Below are positions 1,500-40,656 of a stretch of DNA of 41,936 bases, piece by piece. Position 1 is the stretch's first letter. Every line of letters begins with the position of its first letter. The notes under the pieces are model-generated. The model ran no database searches and was not told the origin of the DNA. It saw only the letters and a list, made by a program, of their open reading frames with translations. Position numbers and translations under genes: made by a program. Source of the stretch: Alphaproteobacteria bacterium RIFCSPLOWO2_01_FULL_40_26 (lineage in GTDB: Bacteria; Pseudomonadota; Alphaproteobacteria; Rickettsiales; UBA1997); contig MEMO01000011.1 of assembly GCA_001767955.1 (NCBI GenBank), forward strand, positions 1 through 41,936, in the 5' to 3' direction.

Positions 1500-3890
1500 A
1501 TGACTGACAAGGCTCGTTCTACATTAACTCTTAAACTCCCATCTGCCGTCAGAAGTCAATCTTTGCCTATCAAAAATGAGGTTAAAGTTGGTGAAAAAAA
1601 ATCCGGCGGAGTGCAGGTAACAATCAAGGGGCGCAAGAAAGAAGCAGGAATCAGAGAAGATTCATTTTCCGGTTTAAGCAAAAGCGAATTTGAAGCCAGA
1701 ATCCATGCAGTTTCAAAATCAGGAGGCATCAGAAATGAAATAAAAACCCATGAAATCCTGAATAAAATCGTCAAAGAAAATGCTGTCGAAAAGCAAAAAG
1801 CAGAGGAAAGACACAAACCAGATGGCTTCGATGTAAGAAACAAAATCAAACAAAGCGTTGAACAAACCAATCGTGTAAAAGAAGAGCGACAAAAGCTTCT
1901 AAATGAAAGAAAAAAAACAGAACAAGCACGCAACGAAAAAGAAAAAAATGATAAGAAAAAAAGCAGAAAATCCGCTTTTGATGAAGAGCAAACAAATAAG
2001 AAAAAATCCGTTTTCAAAGGAGAACATGCCAATGTCAGAAAATTAACCTACATCATCGATACCAACTCTGATGAAGAAAATGTGCGCCACAGAAAAAAGC
2101 CAAAAATGAGGCATGTTCATGAACAGTCGAAAGAATATAAAAAAATCTCCCGCGAAGTTTTATTACCTGATTTAATAACAGTTTCTGATCTTGCTGATCG
2201 TATGTCAGAAAAAGCCGGCGATGTGGTGAAAAAGCTTTTCTCCATGGGAATGGTGGTCACAAGTAATCAGGCCATCGATGTCGATACGGCAGAAATTATC
2301 ATCAACGAATTCGGCCACAAAGCCAAACGCGTTTCCCATTCCGATGTCGAAAATATTCTGGAAGATAAAACCGAACATCAACCTCTGCCACGCGCACCAA
2401 TTGTCACAATCATGGGACATGTTGATCACGGCAAAACTTCACTTCTTGACGCTCTACGCGAAACAGATGTCGCTTCAAAAGAGCATGGCGGAATCACGCA
2501 ACATATCGGCGCTTCAAGAATTCAAACCAAAGACGGAAAATTTATCACTTTTCTTGACACGCCAGGACATGAAGCATTTACCGAAATGCGCTCACGTGGC
2601 GCCAATATCACCGACATCGTAGTTCTAGTCGTCGCCGCTGATGACGGCGTTAAAGAACAAACCATTGAAGCCATTAATCACGCCAAAGCGGCAAATGCTC
2701 CAATCATCGTTGCTGTCAATAAGATTGATAAGCCTGGATCTGATCCAAATCGCGTTAAAAATGAGTTGTTAAGTCACGACATAGTATCAGAAGATTTGGG
2801 CGGAGATGTTATATTCGTACCAGTTTCTGCCAAATCAAAAACCAATCTCGACAAACTTGAAGAAGCAATTTTGCTGCAGGCTGAAATTCTCGATCTGAAA
2901 AGTCCTTACGCTGGCAAATCAAGCGGTGCTGTTCTTGAATCGCGTCTCGATCCAAACCGTGGCGTAGTTGCAACTCTGCTGGTACAAAATGGTGTTTTAA
3001 ACGTTTCCGATTTGATTGTCGTTGGCACCTCTTTTGGCCGCATCAGAAAAATGAGCGATTCAATCGGAAAAAATCTTGATGAAGCAACGCCGTCAATTCC
3101 AGTTGAAGTTTTAGGTCTCGACAGCGCACCAAATGCTGGCGATAAATTTGTTGAAGTTGATGAAGAAAGACAGGCGCGTGAAATCATCGCTTATCGCGAA
3201 CGCAAGGAAAGAGAGGAAAAGGCACTAAAAAATTCTGCTAGAAGTTTCGACGACATTTTCAAAAAATCAGGCAAACTGAAATATCTCAACATTCTGATTA
3301 AGGGCGATGTTCACGGCTCGGTTGAAGCAATAGCCAGCAGCGTGATAAAATTAAACACCGAAGAAGTAGCGATAAAAATCATCCATTGCGCAACCGGCGG
3401 CATTTCCGAAAGCGATATTAATTTAGCCGCAACTTCAAATGCCATTATCATCGGTTTTAATGTGCGCGCCAATCTCACGGCCAAAGAAATGGCTGAAAAA
3501 AAGGGTGTTGATATCCGCTATTATTCCATCATTTACAATCTGGTCGATGATTTGAAATTGCTGCTTTCCGGCATGCTAGCCCCAGTTAAAAGCGAGGAAT
3601 ATCTTGGTCAGGCTGAAATACGTCAAATCTTTAAAATTTCCGATGCCGGAAAAATTGCCGGATGTTTCGTCATTGATGGCTTATTCAAACGCAATGCCAA
3701 AGTCAGGCTTCTGCGTGACAACGTAGTAATCCATGACGGTATTTTAAAAACACTCAAACGCTTCAAGGAAGATGTGAAGGAAGTGAAAAGCGGTTTTGAA
3801 TGCGGTATGGCTTTTGAAAATTATGACAACATTAAAGAAAAGGACACAATCGAGTGTTATAATATCGTTGAGCAAAGAAGATTTCTCTAG
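1500..3890 (+). CDS. infB: Translation initiation factor IF-2
   Basis: G-domain motifs [29 protein letters not shown]2 C-terminal domains; stop codon TAG overlaps the left end of a palindromic repeat. Confidence 0.98.
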
Positions 3891-4050
3891 AGCCTGTTTT
3901 CAAATTCATTCGTCTCCGATTTTTTAGGAAATTTTTAGCGATTTTTGCATAAAATTTTTCATAATATCGGGAATATTTTGAAAAATTTTATGCAAAAAAG
4001 AGCAAAAATTTACAAAAAAGCGGGGGCGAATGAATTTGAAAACAGGCTCT
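3889..4050. repeat. 162-bp palindromic element A1 (ends AGAGCCTGTTTTCAAA / TTTGAAAACAGGCTCT, flanked T...A)
   Basis: Long imperfect inverted repeat across the infB-cybB junction; same termini and length as copies at 34985 and 38498. Confidence 0.93.
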
Positions 4051-4581
4051 AAGCATCCTCTGCTCTCCCGAATCCTTCACTGGCTCATGGCCGCAATAAT
4101 TCTCGCCGCACTTGGGCTTGGAATTTACATGGTAGAATTTCTGGATAAAGAAGCCGCAAACCGTCAAGCCATTTACGATTTGCACAAATCTTTGGGAGTT
4201 GTGGTTTTTATGCTGATTATTCTTCTTCGCCTCCCCGTCCGCCTTGTTTTCGGAGCGCCTCCATTGCCAAAATCACTTCCGATATATGAAAGAATTCTGG
4301 CGCGCCTCACTTATCTGGCATTTTATTTTCTGATGATTGCCGTTCCTCTCTCCGGATATCTGATGACAAACGCATTTGGTTATCCCGTGCCTTTTTTCAG
4401 CCTTACCGATGAACTGCTTTTCATCTATGGAATCGACGATGAGATGGCAAAAAAGTTTGCTGAATTTCATAAAACTTCAGCCTTTGTTTTGCTTGCTCTC
4501 GTAACGCTTCATATTCTTGCTGTCATCAAACATCGCTTTTTCGATAAGCCAGAAAATGATCTTCTAAAAAGGATGTGGTAA
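4030..4581 (+). CDS. Cytochrome b561 family protein; N-terminal codons lie inside palindromic element A1
   Basis: SRILHWLMAAIILAALGLGIYM, DLHKSLGVVVFMLIILR, HKTSAFVLLALVTLHILAVIKHRFFD: four TM helices with cytochrome b561 histidines. Confidence 0.88.
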   Translation: MNLKTGSKHPLLSRILHWLMAAIILAALGLGIYMVEFLDKEAANRQAIYDLHKSLGVVVFMLIILLRLPVRLVFGAPPLPKSLPIYERILARLTYLAFYFLMIAVPLSGYLMTNAFGYPVPFFSLTDELLFIYGIDDEMAKKFAEFHKTSAFVLLALVTLHILAVIKHRFFDKPENDLLKRMW

Positions 4582-18960: not shown

Positions 18961-18963
18961 TTT

Positions 18964-19125
18964 AGACACTGTTAGCTAATTATTTTTTTTGGGATTTTTT
19001 GCTAATTTTTAGCGACTTTTTTGAAGAATTTTGAAGCTGTATTAGACATACTGCGAAAAATTCTTCAAAAAAATGAGCAAAAATTAGCGGAAAAGCACGG
19101 AAAAAATAATTAGCTAACAGTGTCT
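18964..19125. repeat. 162-bp palindromic element A-prime (ends AGACACTGTTAGCTAATTA / TAATTAGCTAACAGTGTCT, flanked T...A)
   Basis: Long inverted repeat between rmlA and degT; same length and central core as A2 and A3, different arms. Confidence 0.93.
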
Positions 19126-20150
19126 ATTATCCGCTCCAGATAAGCGCGATACGGCGAACCTTTTTTAAATTTTTCGATCAAGGAAATAAATTTTGCTTTG
19201 TCTATAAAACCCTTGCGCAAGGCCATTTCCTCAATGCAGGCAATTTTCAGGCCTTGTCGCTTTTCAATAGTGTGAATGAATTGTGAGGCTTCCAAAAGAG
19301 AATCGGGCGTGCCGGCATCAAGCCAGGCAAATCCGCGTTTTAAATTTATCACTCCTAACCTGCACTCTTTGAAATAGGCATTGTTGACATCGGTAATTTC
19401 AAGTTCGCCACGCGCTGATGGTTTGATTTTTTTGGTGATTTCAATCACGTCCGAATTGTAAATATAGAGACCAGTGACCGCCCAATTTGATTTGGGATTT
19501 TTTGGTTTTTCCTCGATTGAAATAATTCTTTCTTCATTGTCGTTGAATTCGATGACGCCATATCTTTCAGGATCGGAAACGTGATAGGCAAAAATAAAAG
19601 CGCCGAGTTTTTTTGTCTCAAGATCGGAAATTTTTTGCTGCAGATTTTCCTGACTTATCTCCGCTCCGTAAAAAATATTATCACCCAAAATCAGGCAAAC
19701 ATTGCTTGTGCCGATAAATTTTTCCCCGATTAAAAAACTTTCCGCAATGCCTCTCGGCTCCTCCTGAATGGCGTAGGAAATCACGATTCCATAATCTTTG
19801 CCATCGCCTAAAAATTTTTTGATATTTGGAATATCCTGCCTGGTTGAAATAATTAGAATTTCTCTAATACCAAGATTCATCAGGGTTGCCAAGGGATAAC
19901 AAATCATCGGCTTGTCATAAACCGGCAATAATTGCTTGCTGATAGTGTTGGTTAAAGGTGCAAGTCTGGTGCCATTTCCGCCGGCAAGAATAATTCCTTT
20001 CAGAACCTGTCCCATATCTCGCTGCGGCAAGTCGGAAATAGCGGATTCACGAGCGCCGCAGCGCAGTGTATTCGACATAGTGAGCAGCGGAAGCGCAGGG
20101 AATTCGCTATTTACGGCCGCTGCAGGTAGAGATATGGGATAGGTTCTCAT
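19110..20150 (-). CDS. rmlA: Glucose-1-phosphate thymidylyltransferase (RmlA), with a 49-codon palindromic-element insertion directly after its start codon
   Basis: KGIILAGGNGTRLAPLTNTISKQLLPVYDKPMICYPL, EEPRGIAESFLIG, LGDNIFYG; last residues DTVS plus stop come from element A-prime. Confidence 0.93.
   Translation of the reverse strand: MRTYPISLPAAAVNSEFPALPLLTMSNTLRCGARESAISDLPQRDMGQVLKGIILAGGNGTRLAPLTNTISKQLLPVYDKPMICYPLATLMNLGIREILIISTRQDIPNIKKFLGDGKDYGIVISYAIQEEPRGIAESFLIGEKFIGTSNVCLILGDNIFYGAEISQENLQQKISDLETKKLGAFIFAYHVSDPERYGVIEFNDNEERIISIEEKPKNPKSNWAVTGLYIYNSDVIEITKKIKPSARGELEITDVNNAYFKECRLGVINLKRGFAWLDAGTPDSLLEASQFIHTIEKRQGLKIACIEEMALRKGFIDKAKFISLIEKFKKGSPYRAYLERIIDTVS
20003..20146. 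mobile_element. 144-bp palindromic MITE-like element B1 with TCA (TNA) direct repeats (20000-20002 and 20147-20149)
   Basis: Ends GAACCTGTCCCATATCTC / GAGATATGGGATAGGTTC; removal restores rmlA start ATG AAA GGA ATT. Confidence 0.88.
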
Positions 20151-21118
20151 AAAATCATCGTTCCCGCACCAGATTCAGTGAAAATTTCCATAAGCATAAT
20201 GTTATCAATTGCGCCATTGAGGATGTGAGCATAGCTGACATTGCTTTCGAGAGCATTGATGCAGGTTTCAATTTTTGGAATCATGCCACCGGTGATTACG
20301 CCATCATATATCATCTGCCTTGCAGTTGCGATATTGAGATGACTAACCAACTCACCATTTGGTAACATCACGCCATCAACATCAGAAAGAATTATCAACT
20401 TTGAAGCCTGCAATGCAGATGCAATTGCGCCAGCAGCGGTATCGGCGTTGATGTTGTAAGTTTCACCGCCATCACCAATGCCAATCGGCGCAATGACTGG
20501 GATGATGTCAGAATCTTCAAAAACGGTGAGTAGTTCTGGATCGACGCGATATGGCTCGCCAACGAAGCCAAGATTGAGAATTTTTTCGATATTGGAATCG
20601 GGATCTTTTTTGGTTTTGGCAACTTTTTTAGCACGAATCAGATTTCCATCCTTGCCGCAAATTCCAATGGCACAACCACCGGCATTGTTGATTTCCTTAA
20701 CGATCATTTTGTTTATCGATCCAGCCAAAACCATCTCCACAACTTCTACCGTATCAGCATCTGTAACACGCAAGCCATCAACAAAATTCGATTTGATATT
20801 GAGCTTGGCAAGCATTTGACCAATTTGTGGACCGCCGCCGTGAACCACGATAGGATTGATTCCAACCTGCTTTAACAAAACCACATTTTTGGCAAAATTT
20901 TTGAGATTGGTATCACCACCCATCGCTGATCCACCAAATTTTATCACGAAAGTTTCGCCAGCAAATTTTCGCATATACGGCAAAGCTTCGCACAATATTT
21001 CAGCCTTGCGCGACCATTCCTGACGGCTTTTTTCTTTCTGCAAAGCGATATGATCAATGGGCGTTACCTCGCCTTCCTTTTTTTTCTTGCTATCATTGAA
21101 GCTTAAAATGTTGGTCAT
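20147..21118 (-). CDS. argB: Acetylglutamate kinase
   Basis: FVIKFGGSAMGG, VHGGGPQIGQML, ADTAAGAIASALQASKLIILSDVDGVM, GGMIPKIETC. Confidence 0.95.
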   Translation of the reverse strand: MTNILSFNDSKKKKEGEVTPIDHIALQKEKSRQEWSRKAEILCEALPYMRKFAGETFVIKFGGSAMGGDTNLKNFAKNVVLLKQVGINPIVVHGGGPQIGQMLAKLNIKSNFVDGLRVTDADTVEVVEMVLAGSINKMIVKEINNAGGCAIGICGKDGNLIRAKKVAKTKKDPDSNIEKILNLGFVGEPYRVDPELLTVFEDSDIIPVIAPIGIGDGGETYNINADTAAGAIASALQASKLIILSDVDGVMLPNGELVSHLNIATARQMIYDGVITGGMIPKIETCINALESNVSYAHILNGAIDNIMLMEIFTESGAGTMIL

Positions 21119-21822
21119 TGCAGGAAATGTTTGATTGAAATGGTCTGAATATTGCTGAAACGCTCAATGGTTCTGAGAACCTGTCCAAAATCTCTACTGC
21201 GATGGCCATCTATGGCTGATTCGCTGTGCTCCTCGCAGCGAGATTTTGGACAGGTTCTGACTAATTGCGAAGTCTTAATTTGCGAAGGAAAATTTTCATT
21301 AATGATTATTTTTTCCAAAAAAATTTTTTTTGCCTTCAAAGCCATAATTGCGCAAAGAGTGTGGGAAATTGATCCAAGATAATTTGCGCTAACCAGTAAA
21401 ACCGGAATTTTCAGATCACAAGCCAGATCAAGAAAAGTTTTTTTATCCGTAATTGGCGTCATCACACCACCGGCTGCTTCGATAAATAAAAAACGATTCT
21501 GTTTTTTAGCCAAAGCGATGTTTTTACGACAAAAATTTTTAACCGCAGAAAAATCTATCTTGCCGGCAAAATGCGGCGAAACCGGCTTTTTAAAGCGCCA
21601 GGGAGTAATTTTATCAAAATCTTTTTCGCCTAAAATTTTGGCAATTCGCGCAGTGTCGGAGTTTTTATCATCATCGCAAAATCCGCTGGCAATTGGTTTG
21701 ATGGCAAGTGGCAGAATGGATCCCGAAACAAGATCAGGATGACGTAGCAAGTTTTCTACCAAAAAAGTTTTTCCGATTTCTGTGCCAATTCCAAGGATGA
21801 GGTAAATCTTGCTTCGCAACAT
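21115..21822 (-). CDS. bioD: Dethiobiotin synthetase, carrying two repeat-derived insertions
   Basis: LILGIGTEIGKTFLVENLLR, IKPIASGF, FLFIEAAGGVMTPI; inserted HPDLVSGS and RTCPKSRCEEHSESAIDGHRSRDFGQVL segments. Confidence 0.85.
   Translation of the reverse strand: MLRSKIYLILGIGTEIGKTFLVENLLRHPDLVSGSILPLAIKPIASGFCDDDKNSDTARIAKILGEKDFDKITPWRFKKPVSPHFAGKIDFSAVKNFCRKNIALAKKQNRFLFIEAAGGVMTPITDKKTFLDLACDLKIPVLLVSANYLGSISHTLCAIMALKAKKIFLEKIIINENFPSQIKTSQLVRTCPKSRCEEHSESAIDGHRSRDFGQVLRTIERFSNIQTISIKHFLQ
21177..21257. mobile_element. 81-bp palindromic MITE-like element B2 with TGA (TNA) direct repeats (21174-21176, 21258-21260), in frame in bioD
   Basis: Ends GAACCTGTCCAAAATCTC / GAGATTTTGGACAGGTTC; related to B1 (same GAACCTGTCC terminus). 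Confidence 0.87.
21719..21743. repeat. Family D arm (gatcccgaaacaagatcaggatgac) inside bioD
   Basis: Variant of the cctgaaacaagttcaggatgac repeat at 26445, 28781, 40631. Confidence 0.8.
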
Positions 21823-26444: not shown

Positions 26445-26523
26445 AGATCCTGAAACAAGTTCAGGATGACATGTTTTGAAACCATCTTCCCCGGATTGTC
26501 ATCCTGAACTTGTTTCAGGATCT
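26445..26523. repeat. Family D palindrome (AGATCCTGAAACAAGTTCAGGATGAC ... GTCATCCTGAACTTGTTTCAGGATCT)
   Basis: 26-bp perfect terminal inverted repeats around a short loop, intergenic between argG and a GNAT gene. Confidence 0.93.
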
Positions 26524-27014: not shown

Positions 27015-27886
27015 AAAAACGTTCGCATTTCAACTATCGCCTGCGCAAATATTTTCTTATTCCGCTGAAAATTTTTAGAATCGCAATTATCGACACAGTT
27101 AGGCAGGACGGAATTGAGCATGCGGGATATCTGGCGTTTCTGATGCTGCTTTCCCTGTTTCCTTTTTTGATTTTTTTAATCGCAATTATTGGTTTATTTG
27201 GACAATCAGAAGCGGGAGTGCAAATAGTTCAAACCGCTCTTGCTTCAATACCGCAAGGAATGGTTGAAGCTTTAGCGCCGCGTATCAATGAGATAGTTTC
27301 AGGTCCGGAACAAAGTTTACTTACAATCGCCATTATCGGTGTAATTTGGACCGCCTCTTCTTCGGTTGAAGGTTGTCGCACCATTCTGAATCGCGCCTAT
27401 CGCATCAATTTTCCTCCATCTTACATCTGGCGGCGCATGTTTAGCATTGTCGAATTTTTCGTCATCACTTTTGCCATTGTTACCGCTATAATGGTTTTTG
27501 TGATTGCCCCAACGATCCTGAAACAATTCGCCGCAAACTTCGTAAAAATTGACTATGATTTCTTTTACCTGCGACAAGCCGCCATATTTTCCATTCTGAC
27601 TTGCGCCGTTTCTTTGCTGTACTACGCCCTTCCCAATGCCAAACAAAAAATTACTCAAACCATTCCCGGCTCAATATTGGCAGTGTTTCTATGGATTGCA
27701 TTGCAACATTTGTTTTCATTTTATCTTAACAATTTCCATCAGGTAAATTTCGTTTATGGATCACTCGCCGGCATCATAATTTCAATGATGTTTTTTTATC
27801 TCATCAGTTTGGTTTTCATCCTTGGCGCTGAATTTAACTATCACTTCCACCGCGTCTATCAGGTGTTCCTCAAGAATAGACGATGA
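27005..27886 (+). CDS. YihY/BrkB (UPF0761) family inner-membrane protein
   Basis: HAGYLAFLMLLSLFPFLIFLIAIIG, SSSVEGCRTILNRAYRI, GSILAVFLWIALQHLFSFYLNNF, VYGSLAGIIISMMFFYLISLVFILGAEFN. Confidence 0.9.
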   Translation: MPLKKRSHFNYRLRKYFLIPLKIFRIAIIDTVRQDGIEHAGYLAFLMLLSLFPFLIFLIAIIGLFGQSEAGVQIVQTALASIPQGMVEALAPRINEIVSGPEQSLLTIAIIGVIWTASSSVEGCRTILNRAYRINFPPSYIWRRMFSIVEFFVITFAIVTAIMVFVIAPTILKQFAANFVKIDYDFFYLRQAAIFSILTCAVSLLYYALPNAKQKITQTIPGSILAVFLWIALQHLFSFYLNNFHQVNFVYGSLAGIIISMMFFYLISLVFILGAEFNYHFHRVYQVFLKNRR

Positions 27887-29259
27887 AGATTCCTTTTTGG
27901 CCTGATGCTAAAATTCATAACATCGAGCTTGGCCTATCGCGTGTTTTGCAATTGTTAGAAAGGCTTGGCAATCCGCACTTAAAACTTCCTCCCGCAATTC
28001 ACATTGCCGGCACTAACGGCAAGGGTTCGACACTGGCTTTCTTGCGTGCAATTTTTGAGGAATCCGGTTTAAAAATTCACACCTACACCTCACCGCATCT
28101 TGTCAATTTTAACGAAAGAATCCTGCTCGCCGGAAAAGAAATTTCTGATGATTTTCTCAACGAAATTTTGACCGAATGTAAAAAAGCGGCAGAAATTTTT
28201 CCGCAAATCCAGGTCACTTTTTTTGAGGGAACAACAGTGGCAACCTTCCTTGCCTTTAGCCGCGTGCCCGCTGATTTACTTCTGCTGGAAACCGGCATGG
28301 GCGGCAGACTTGATGCCACCAATGTTTTGCCGGAAGTTTTATGTTCAGTGATCACGCCAATTTCTTTCGACCATGAAGAATTTTTAGGAAATACTTTGGC
28401 AAAAATCGCTTACGAAAAAGCCGGAATCATCAAGAAAAATTGTCCGGTGGTGATTGGAAAACAGGTGGAAGAAGCGCTGCAAGTAATTGAGGATCAAGCA
28501 TTTAAAAAAAGAGCCATCCTAACAAAACCAAACTTACCACTTACCACTTACCACTTACCACTAATCGGAAATTTTCAAAAAGAAAATGCAGCATTAGCCA
28601 TTGCCGTTGTAAAGGCGCAGAAAAAATTTTCTGTAAGCGAGGAGCAAATTAAAAATGGCTTGAAAAAGGCAAAATGGCCGGCGCGACTACAAAAAATTCC
28701 GCATGATGATTTTGATCTTTATCTTGATGGCAGTCATAATCTGCAAGGCGCTGAAACAGTTGCAGAATTTCTAAAAAAACAGATCCTGAAACAAGTTCAG
28801 GATGACATTCATATTGGGACTGTCGCAAATCCCCATTTCTTACCATTTTTAAACTCGACGAGCCCTTGTAAATCAAGGGTTCAGATTTTTCAGAAAGTTG
28901 ATTTGCGACATGGCCATATTTGTCATCCTGAACTTGTTTCAGGATCTAAAAAACAAAAAAAAGTGATACTCATCTTCTCCATGCTCAAAGACAAAAACTG
29001 CGTTGGTTTTCTTACAAAAATAAAAGATGAAATTGATGAGTTAATTGCGCTTACAATACCAGATGAACCAAGATCGCTTAAGGATTTTGAAATTGTAAAA
29101 ATCGCAGAAAAAATTGGAATAAAATCACAAACAGCATCAAATTTTGATGAAGCTTTTAAAAAAATAAAATCTGATGAACGCCCTCTGGTTTTAATCTCAG
29201 GCTCACTTTATCTGGCAGGAAAATTTTTGGAAAACAATGCTCACTTGCTGACAATATAA
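27883..29259 (+). CDS. folC: Folylpolyglutamate synthase/dihydrofolate synthase, with a large repeat-derived insertion
   Basis: HIAGTNGKGSTLAFL, ETGMGGRLDATNV, TPISFDHEEFLG, LYLDGSHNLQGAE, VILIFSMLKDKN; inserted ILKQVQDD...VANPHFLPFLNSTSP...HPELVSGS. Confidence 0.92.
   Translation: MKIPFWPDAKIHNIELGLSRVLQLLERLGNPHLKLPPAIHIAGTNGKGSTLAFLRAIFEESGLKIHTYTSPHLVNFNERILLAGKEISDDFLNEILTECKKAAEIFPQIQVTFFEGTTVATFLAFSRVPADLLLLETGMGGRLDATNVLPEVLCSVITPISFDHEEFLGNTLAKIAYEKAGIIKKNCPVVIGKQVEEALQVIEDQAFKKRAILTKPNLPLTTYHLPLIGNFQKENAALAIAVVKAQKKFSVSEEQIKNGLKKAKWPARLQKIPHDDFDLYLDGSHNLQGAETVAEFLKKQILKQVQDDIHIGTVANPHFLPFLNSTSPCKSRVQIFQKVDLRHGHICHPELVSGSKKQKKVILIFSMLKDKNCVGFLTKIKDEIDELIALTIPDEPRSLKDFEIVKIAEKIGIKSQTASNFDEAFKKIKSDERPLVLISGSLYLAGKFLENNAHLLTI
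28781..28947. repeat. Family D palindrome inside folC, with family F nested in its loop
   Basis: Arms 28781-28806 and 28922-28947 are reverse complements; interior holds the 100-bp F repeat. Confidence 0.9.
28818..28917 (+). repeat. Family F 100-bp repeat (copy 1, in folC)
   Basis: About 95% identical by eye to the reverse complement of 36329..36428; same reading frame. Confidence 0.92.
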
Positions 29260-34649: not shown

Positions 34650-35291
34650 ATGACTCAACAACATACTAAAGACGAGCTCGGGCTCGATAAATCAAAAGAA
34701 GTAGAATTCTATGCCGCCCACGTCGAGGCGATGCTTGAATCAAATGTTGAGAAAAACCGTCAACTTCTGGCGCTTTCATCTTTAGTAATCGGTATCCTGA
34801 TGGGTTTTTTTGACACTGATGATTTAAAGGGAATTTCATCCTTTATTATGTGGATGATTGCATGCGTTTCATTCGCCACCTGCATAATTGTTACCCTGAT
34901 TTTCTTCCCCAAAAATGCTGAATATTTACGACATGTGGTTGAAAAAAGCGACAAAACCGAAACACAAAAAAGACATTTGAGACTAGAGCCTGTCTTCAAA
35001 CTCATCACAGCTCGATTTTTCAGAAATTTTGAGCGACTTTCCGGCAAAATTTTGCTGCTGTATCTGGCATACTGCAAAAAATTTTGCCGGAAAACGAGCC
35101 AAAATTTGTGGAAAAGCGAGCTGTGATGAGTTTGAAGACAGGCTCTAATCTCATTTTTTGCCTCTCTGACTTTTATCATCGGCATCATTATGATGTTTGC
35201 ATTAGTGGTCTATGAATCAAAATTCATGCTTGAAGAAGAGGAAAAACAGGTGATTGAACAAATCGAAAAGAAACACCATCGCTTCAGATAA
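34650..35291 (+). pseudogene. Multi-TM hypothetical protein interrupted by palindromic element A2
   Basis: ORF MTQQHTKDELGLDK... stops within the element at 35124-35126; same frame resumes after it as LISFFASLTFIIGIIMMFALVVYESKFMLEEEEKQVIEQIEKKHHRFR*. Confidence 0.75.
34985..35146. repeat. 162-bp palindromic element A2
   Basis: Ends AGAGCCTGTCTTCAAACTCATCACAGCTCG / CGAGCTGTGATGAGTTTGAAGACAGGCTCT, flanked T...A. Confidence 0.94.
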
Positions 35292-35845: not shown

Positions 35846-36658
35846 TTATTTGGGTTCGTCCGGTTTCTTTTCTAAAAGATCCGGACGAATTTTTTTTGTC
35901 AGCTCCATTGCTTTCATTTTCCTCCATTCCGCAATTTTTTTATGATGGCCAGAAAGAAGAATTTCTGGAATTTTGCATCCCCGCCACTCTGATGGTTTGG
36001 TATAATGCGGATATTCAAGAATATTGCCAAAACTAAAAGATTCTTCCTTCAAAGATTCATCATCACCCAAAATGCCGGAAATATTTCGTAAAATCGCATC
36101 AATAAAAACATAAGCTGCAATTTCTCCGCCGGATAACACATAATCGCCGATGGAAATTTCTTCGATCGCAAACTCATCCAAAACACGCTGGTCAACACCT
36201 TCATAACGCCCGCACAAAACCATAATTTCCTTTTCTTGCGCCAGTTCCTGCGCCATTTTTTGATTGAAAACTTTTCCGCGCGGCGAGAGGTAAATAATCT
36301 TCATGCTTGGTTTTGAATTTTGAAATAAATGGCCATGTCGCAAATCAACTTTCTGAAAAATCTGAACCCTTGATTTGTGAGGGCTCGTCGAGTTTGAAAA
36401 TGGTAAGAAACGGGGATTTGCGACAGTCTCTAAATGTGATTCAATGGCGCTGGCAATTACATCTGCTTTCATCACCATCCCTGCTCCGCCGCCATATGGT
36501 GTGTCATCAACAGATTTGTGTTTATCTTTGGCATAATCGCGAATGTTGATTGCCTCAAACGACCATAGTTTATTTTTCAAAGCATCGCCGATAACAGAAA
36601 CCGATAAAGGCCCGGGGAAAAGTTCAGGAAAAATTGTCAGAATTTTGAAATGAATCAT
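35846..36658 (-). CDS. trmD: tRNA (guanine-N1)-methyltransferase with an in-frame repeat-derived insertion
   Basis: FKILTIFPELFPG, DDTPYGGGAGMVMKAD, IIYLSPRGKVFNQ, MVLCGRYEGVDQRV, EISIGDYVLSGGEIAA, PHYTKPSEWRG; inserted VANPRFLPFSNSTSPHKSRVQIFQKVDLRHGH. Confidence 0.95.
   Translation of the reverse strand: MIHFKILTIFPELFPGPLSVSVIGDALKNKLWSFEAINIRDYAKDKHKSVDDTPYGGGAGMVMKADVIASAIESHLETVANPRFLPFSNSTSPHKSRVQIFQKVDLRHGHLFQNSKPSMKIIYLSPRGKVFNQKMAQELAQEKEIMVLCGRYEGVDQRVLDEFAIEEISIGDYVLSGGEIAAYVFIDAILRNISGILGDDESLKEESFSFGNILEYPHYTKPSEWRGCKIPEILLSGHHKKIAEWRKMKAMELTKKIRPDLLEKKPDEPK
36329..36428 (-). repeat. Family F 100-bp repeat (copy 2, in trmD)
   Basis: See copy 28818..28917; five differences counted by eye. 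Confidence 0.92.
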
Positions 36659-38487: not shown

Positions 38488-39442
38488 TTCCGCTTCTAGA
38501 GCCTGTTTTCAAACCCACCACATTTCGCTTTTGCCCAAATTTTGGCTCGTTTTTTGGCAAAATTTTTTGCTGTATGCCAGATACAGCGGCAAAATTTTGC
38601 CAAAAAGTCGCACAAAATTTGGGCAAAATCGAAACGCGCTGGGTTTGAAAACAGGCTCTAAAAATTGGCATTAACGACAATACAATAAACAACCCATAAA
38701 AATTACCGTAAGGAATAAAAAACAGACGAAAGATCATATCAATTGCCGCCATAAAAAATGTGTAGATAAATTGTCTGGAAATTGAAGTCGGCGCGGTTCT
38801 AGGATCGGTAATCATATTAAAAGAAAATAACAACATTGATGCTGAAGTTAAAATCTGAATATTGGACAAAAAGTCCGCAAAAGAAAAATCGCTTCTAACC
38901 AACGCAAAAAAGCAAAAATTTAGAAACCAAAATAATACGGTAAAAAACTGCCCGGCCATCAAGCTGATAATAAATCCAGCAATAAAAAATATAACCACCG
39001 CCGCAACACTTCCTGCAAAAACCATACCGGACAGATTCAGATTTCCCTCATATAAAATCAACATCACCACTATGCCAAAATTTGACGGGTTGTACAAATG
39101 TCTGCCGTCAACTCGAATAAAAAACTTCGACAAAATCGCCAATATGGTTGCCATGAAATATGGCGTGGCGGAAGTCGCATCAATTATAAGTGAAGAACTT
39201 AATGCCGCCAATATCGCGCTTACCGGAAAATATGGCTTAACACCGCGAAAATGTTGAATTGAAAGCTCCAATGTTATTGCCAGAAATATCATGGCAAACA
39301 TAACACTAAGCGGACGTTCAAAATAAAAAAGAAGCCGCGCTGCAACCGAATATGAGAATATACCAACCAGCTGCAAATAAAATGCGATGCGTAGAATTTT
39401 TTGCTTTTTATCAGCGTTATTTTCGAGGAAAAAACCCATCAA
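38477..39442 (-). CDS. RnfD/NqrB-like integral membrane protein; C-terminus extended by element A3
   Basis: FRGVKPYFPVSAILAALSSSLIIDA, HLYNPSNFGIV, FSFNMITDPRTAPTS; tail FRACFQTQ...GLKTGSR encoded by the palindrome. Confidence 0.75.
   Translation of the reverse strand: MMGFFLENNADKKQKILRIAFYLQLVGIFSYSVAARLLFYFERPLSVMFAMIFLAITLELSIQHFRGVKPYFPVSAILAALSSSLIIDATSATPYFMATILAILSKFFIRVDGRHLYNPSNFGIVVMLILYEGNLNLSGMVFAGSVAAVVIFFIAGFIISLMAGQFFTVLFWFLNFCFFALVRSDFSFADFLSNIQILTSASMLLFSFNMITDPRTAPTSISRQFIYTFFMAAIDMIFRLFFIPYGNFYGLFIVLSLMPIFRACFQTQRVSILPKFCATFWQNFAAVSGIQQKILPKNEPKFGQKRNVVGLKTGSRSGNEK
38498..38659. repeat. 162-bp palindromic element A3, in frame at the 3' end of the RnfD-like gene
   Basis: Ends AGAGCCTGTTTTCAAACCCA / TGGGTTTGAAAACAGGCTCT, flanked T...A. 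Confidence 0.93.
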
Positions 39443-40630: not shown

Positions 40631-40656
40631 AGATCCTGAAACAAGTTCAGGATGAC
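40631..40656. repeat. Solo family D arm
   Basis: agatcctgaaacaagttcaggatgac, identical to the 26445 and 28781 arms. Confidence 0.9.

Follow-up and report, generated by a model that had tools for sequence, protein, structure and literature searches.

The window, that is, the whole stretch of 41,936 nucleotides that was analysed, carries the intact open reading frames of folC and trmD on opposite strands, and each of them is lengthened by a copy of the same 100-bp DNA element (Table 1). In a repeat search, the two loci are alike over 116 nt at 91% identity. A first-pass annotation of this DNA had proposed that one repeated element encodes a nearly identical peptide in both proteins, and this was borne out: the 100-bp interval that it gave matches at 95%, 4 of the 33 residues differ between the two peptides, and the segments agree in frame and in orientation relative to translation. 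Its start at 28818 hit the right element, with bounds two bases off. The flanks that it named in FolC, AEFLKK and VILIFSMLKDKN, do enclose the element, but they also take in a surrounding 60-nt palindrome (GATCCTGAAACAAG...).

Table 1. Features of the folC and trmD loci, with positions in the window
Feature	Positions	Strand	Remarks
folC host gene	27883..29259	+	458 aa, intact ORF; TIGR01499, E=8.7e-105; insert absent from orthologs
Older outer palindrome in folC (GATCCTGAAACAAGTTCAGGATGAC / inverse)	28782..28946	+	in frame, QILKQVQDD...CHPELVSGS; MITE inserted within
Left TSD, folC copy	28811..28815	+	ATATT
MITE copy in folC	28816..28915	+	in-frame peptide GTVANPHFLPFLNSTSPCKSRVQIFQKVDLRHG; found by repeat and genome search, bounds from TSDs
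Left TIR, folC copy	28816..28831	+	GGGACTGTCGCAAATC; hairpin stem
Right TIR, folC copy	28900..28915	-	GGCCATGTCGCAAATC (reverse complement); hairpin stem
Right TSD, folC copy	28916..28920	+	ATATT
trmD host gene	35846..36658	-	270 aa, intact ORF; NF000648, E=7.9e-93 over aa 3-262; insert absent from orthologs
TSD on 3' side in trmD	36326..36330	-	ATTTA
MITE copy in trmD	36331..36430	-	in-frame peptide ETVANPRFLPFSNSTSPHKSRVQIFQKVDLRHG
TSD on 5' side in trmD	36431..36435	-	ATTTA

The placement of both segments in loops, also proposed from the letters, agrees with AlphaFold2 models, for which the alignments comprised 26 and 30 sequences. In these models most of the FolC and TrmD fold is confident, and the inserts are predicted to be unstructured, low-confidence loops lying between a helix and a strand, with pLDDT values below 50 at residues 318-353 of FolC and 78-116 of TrmD. 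Conservation of the segment in other FolC and TrmD proteins, named beforehand as the finding that would speak against an inserted element, was looked for in 26 TrmD and 29 FolC orthologs, drawn from the genus itself and, beyond it, up to further families of the order, and the segment was absent from all 55; the empty sites are established at the protein level for these two genes.

In folC the element lies inside the older palindrome, which measures about 60 nt once the element and one copy of the duplication are subtracted and belongs to a family with 145 half-sites in the genome. FolC is therefore a record of one insertion nested in another, each of them in frame. In a congener (G015), this older palindrome, which is unrelated to the element and reads HPELVSGS / PELVSGS, occupies the same loops of both FolC and TrmD, a recurrence in the protein sequences pointing to these loops as insertion-tolerant sites. 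Elsewhere in the window, members of the GATCCTGAAACAAGTTCAGGATGAC family are found at 26446-26522 and 40632-40656, and read QVQDD...HPELVSGS when genic. The repeat GATCCTGAAACAAGTTCAGGATGAC contains ATGAC, a motif reported to be frequent in RPE-4/6/7 of Rickettsia (PMC3767692), to which it may be related.

Ends, target-site duplication and copy number

The genome assembly is a 1.44-Mb draft in 38 contigs. A first DNA search with the 100-bp sequence gave at least 40 matches, pattern and protein searches added more, and 48 full-length copies, on more than 20 contigs, were mapped from the stretches fetched around the matches. By these combined searches, full-length copies in the genome number at least 48, with identities of 83-100%, mostly 93% or above. 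Where the first-pass annotation covered two copies, the analysis adds about 50 copies, their TSDs, the coding use of both strands, some 21 more host genes and the nesting in FolC.

The left terminus of the element is GGGACTGTCGCAAATC and the right one, read as reverse complement, is GGCCATGTCGCAAATC, which makes the element near-palindromic at its termini (GGGACTGTCGCAAATC...GATTTGCGACATGGCC). The TIRs are imperfect and 16 nt long, and 11 bp of them form an uninterrupted stem when folded; a hairpin is predicted for each strand, with z values of -4.4 and -3.4. An exact 5-bp flanking repeat accompanies 37 of the 48 copies (40 when at least four of the five positions are required to match), as against a mean of 2.1 and a maximum of 8 exact matches in 20,000 trials with re-paired left and right flanks. 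The eight remaining copies are without a recognisable duplication at the expected position, and in two of these it is shifted by 1 bp. A target preference is also visible, since position -6 is C in 35 of 40 copies examined. A duplication longer than 5 bp was considered, with position -6 matching in 37/40 and position -7 in 26/40 copies, and was set aside, the count being confounded by this upstream C preference.

In a few copies (L023:4047, L036:4099, L029:2591 and L031:2523), the right end is GGCT or GGTC instead of GGCC, and these deviant ends equal, position for position, the bases to the left of the duplication, which would fit a target origin of the final one or two bases.

Ends, target-site duplication and copy number together are the anatomy of a MITE: a 100-bp element that encodes no transposase, bears TIRs, duplicates 5 bp of its target and is dispersed in many near-identical copies. 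We hold it to be very probable that the FolC and TrmD segments are copies of such a non-autonomous element, with GGNNCTGTYGCAAATC ends and a 5-bp TSD, and that they are translated through in their hosts.

Reading frames and host genes

With one copy of the TSD added, the element amounts to 105 bp, or 35 codons. Frame 0 is without a stop in 42 of 47 copies in the FolC/TrmD orientation and in 46 of 47 on the opposite strand, and in both open frames a host codon boundary falls at the element's first base. A third frame is open in 9/47 copies, while the remaining registers end translation in most. Because the added length is a whole number of codons and each strand offers a stop-free frame, insertion in register lengthens the protein and does not break it.

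By our classification, 23 copies are internal to protein genes and in frame. The hosts, many of which are normally essential, are FolC, TrmD, BirA, MurC, Ddl, DnaE, NuoG and HemH, together with two Fic proteins, RibF, AddB, a class-I glutamine amidotransferase, ComEC, a copper-type P-ATPase, MetX, RlpA, a Methyltransf_28 protein, a glycerol-1-phosphate dehydrogenase-like protein, PrmC, an ABC transporter ATPase, a formyltransferase and a membrane protein without family match. A curated family match was obtained for 22 of the 23, and in at least 12 it spans the insert or resumes on both sides of it. For RlpA, the larger Fic protein, ComEC, the formyltransferase, the dehydrogenase-like protein and the membrane protein, the match is one-sided or missing, and these hosts were assigned by open frame and ORF length. 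Translation of the insert in the hosts is suggested by these open frames.

The phase-0 register is used by 22 of the 23 internal copies, 5 in the sense of the FolC/TrmD peptide and 17 antisense to it, the latter encoding a different peptide, GHVANQLSEKSEPLIYKGSSSLKMVRNGDLRQSH. The exception is the ABC transporter copy (L043), which is read in the third frame, the one open in 9/47 copies. This transporter gene (L043:1290-3044) also carries QQVRGDK runs and two CHPALVAGS inserts besides the MITE. The antisense excess (17/23) is weak (two-sided P=0.03). A register test placed 23 of 25 copies in two registers against about one third expected if every genic insertion were kept (P=1e-9), a value that is illustrative, as the genic calls relied partly on an ORF spanning the copy and the test is to that extent conditioned on its outcome.

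None of the 48 mapped copies was seen to break a housekeeping gene in a closed register. The clear case of a gene interrupted in a closed frame is a DDE_Tnp_1 (IS1634-like) transposase gene (L019:2605-2704), and another copy (L013:4943) sits inside a truncated IS relic. Six copies coincide with the start of a gene or lie immediately ahead of it (SppA, NrdD, ParB, Fur, IspDF and PDH E2), and the others occupy intergenic DNA, the 3' ends of genes (e.g., L016 and L027) or transposase genes and their relics. About half of all copies lie outside genes; the coding density of 96% in the window is an overestimate, and depletion of insertions within genes is a qualitative statement only.

A second genome of the genus, G016 (CAMCMF01), has two copies that are 77% identical to the element and have perfect 16-nt ends, GGGGCTGTTGCAAATC; it is the only one with matches in an exact-pattern scan of genome contigs. 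The same two frames are open in these copies, an outcome with P=0.17 under random substitution, so that selection on translatability is suggested and not demonstrated. Peptide identity between G000 and G016 exceeds the random-substitution null weakly and not significantly (P=0.09 sense, 0.59 antisense).

These data bear on whether the insert is a useful peptide module, such as a tag, a localisation signal or a regulatory loop, passed between proteins. The near-identical peptide in several proteins and the frames kept open in G016 would fit it, yet in 17 of the 23 genic copies the opposite strand is read, giving another amino acid sequence, about half of the copies are not in genes at all, the host functions are unrelated, and the peptide identity just given is hardly above chance; we consider such a module very improbable. 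Just as little credit is given to the idea that the insert is lost during expression, whether cut out as an intron or an intein or skipped by ribosome bypass, leaving mature proteins without it. The stable hairpin on both strands and the nature of the hosts, enzymes normally essential in bacteria, would fit such a process, but removal needs no open frame, and all 23 internal copies occupy a stop-free register, 22 of them one of the same two; moreover, no Rfam family matched in the window and no Pfam or NCBIfam model matched the insert peptides. That the 38-contig, metagenome-derived draft owes its repeats to chimeric assembly or binning is scarcely credible, as chimeras would not scatter copies over more than 20 contigs and give them unique flanks, precise 5-bp duplications and kept frames, and the contamination estimate is 0.18%.

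Mobility, relatives and comparison with known systems

The preferred reading is thus a mobile element that can be read through. A transposase recognising the GGNNCTGTYGCAAATC ends presumably mobilised it, and it would have spread in this way to at least 48 sites, each insertion adding its 35 codons. Genic insertion in two of the six registers would leave a protein unchanged but for about 35 additional residues, and purifying selection, judging from the pattern of copies, would retain those that are intergenic or that lie in an open register at loop-tolerant protein sites. The element behaves as selfish DNA that survives in essential genes through its translatability, and a benefit to the host is needless as an assumption. 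More speculatively, several unrelated palindromic transposons of the genus may have come under selection for translatability acting on the elements themselves (registers free of stops on both strands, and length plus TSD a multiple of three) and have settled repeatedly in the same tolerant loops of essential enzymes. These genomes would then amount to a natural insertion scan of essential proteins; we regard this as possible but rather doubtful.

Related elements, most of them about 130-160 bp long and with GGCRCTGTCGCAAATC or GGGGCTGTTGCAAATC ends, are present in G005, G011, G015, G016, G017 and G019, and several of the GGCRCTGTCGCAAATC-ended MITEs in congeners such as G011, G015, G016 and G019 have clean 5-bp TSDs. 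A DNA search across 344 genomes of the order returned no further full-length relative and two short matches of 23-27 nt, and the insert peptide had no match in plasmids. A transposase gene bordered by these ends did not turn up in searches for PF13610 in 15 genomes of the genus and for DDE_Tnp_1 in the incomplete assembly: the genome has three DDE_Tnp_1 genes, all lacking the ends of the element at their borders, and one of them is interrupted by a copy of it. A related autonomous IS that shares the ends would help in assigning an element to the MITEs, but the class does not require one.

The terminus GGNNCTGTYGCAAA resembles the ends of the IS6 family, such as GGCACTGTTGCAAA. Membership in that family was rejected, as IS6 elements duplicate 8 bp where this one duplicates 5, and PF13610 (DDE_Tnp_IS240, IS6-type) matched nothing in the 15 genomes searched. 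A Tn3-derived origin was likewise set aside because the TIRs are about 16 bp here against the roughly 38 bp of Tn3 ends. Tn3-derived miniature elements are described with a 5-bp TSD (PMC4133298).

The closest functional parallel is found in the palindromic elements of Rickettsia, RPE-1 and others (Ogata et al., 2000, 2002, as cited in PMC10969869 and PMC2229807). RPEs are likewise short palindromic repeats, of 105-146 bp, found between genes and also, in frame, within many conserved genes that are unrelated to one another, in a small alphaproteobacterial genome, with 19 in-frame insertions, a TIR of 12 bp and a TSD entered as "?" (Delihas, 2007; PMC2229807). An RPE-bearing guanylate kinase is active, with changed affinity (PMC2229807). 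MITE-gene fusions are not unusual according to a 2024 review, in which RPEs are the extreme case (PMC10969869). The present element shares with RPEs the size class of 100-150 bp, the palindromic structure and the in-frame position in unrelated conserved genes, 23 in number. Two hosts are also shared, DnaE and BirA, as DNA polymerase III alpha and biotin ligase carry RPEs in R. japonica (PMC3767692). It differs in its clear 5-bp TSD, in coding on both strands with one register each, in its recent, near-identical copies and, probably, in a host genus other than Rickettsia, to which the arginine, histidine and biotin biosynthesis genes of the window appear a poor fit. That the host is an alphaproteobacterium is likely from its AddB, which matches an alphaproteobacterial model. 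The RPE1 model, TIGR01045, the RPE family compared, had no match at E<=10 anywhere in the genome. The element thus works like an RPE and is not shown to be one, and an independent origin is the simplest reading. Going by their descriptions, Wolbachia palindromic repeats likewise code inside genes (Ogata et al., 2005, as cited in PMC3767692), and the 107-bp Correia/NEMIS element of Neisseria is a MITE with TIR and TSD whose two ORFs are fused to genes, transposase genes included; its TIRs differ in being 24 bp long with terminal TA (PMC2229807).

Protein-coding palindromes were earlier described as peculiar to Rickettsia and Wolbachia, and a comparable case is now seen in what is probably another genus. 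While the movement of RPEs is unsettled, the signature of transposition is plain here in the ends, the 5-bp duplication and the target preference, and compatibility with genes has a simple explanation in the added length of 100+5 bp and the single open register on each strand. Conserved enzymes apparently accept some 35 additional residues in the loops that these insertions mark, and this idea of tolerant loops is directly testable, since DnaE and BirA recur as hosts in Rickettsia and the FolC and TrmD loops recur in the congener with the unrelated palindrome.

Other repeats were noted in the window. Of two genes, at 21115-21822 (BioD-like) and 19110-20150 (nucleotidyltransferase N-terminus), one contains RHPDLVSGS and RCEEHSESAIDGHRSRDFGQVLRT and the other RCGARESAISDLPQRDMGQVLK; these segments are probably further coding repeats. 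Inverted repeats of about 165-175 bp at 34978-35153, 38494-38663, 18963-19126 and 3888-4051 make up another palindromic family, some members of which overlap gene ends.
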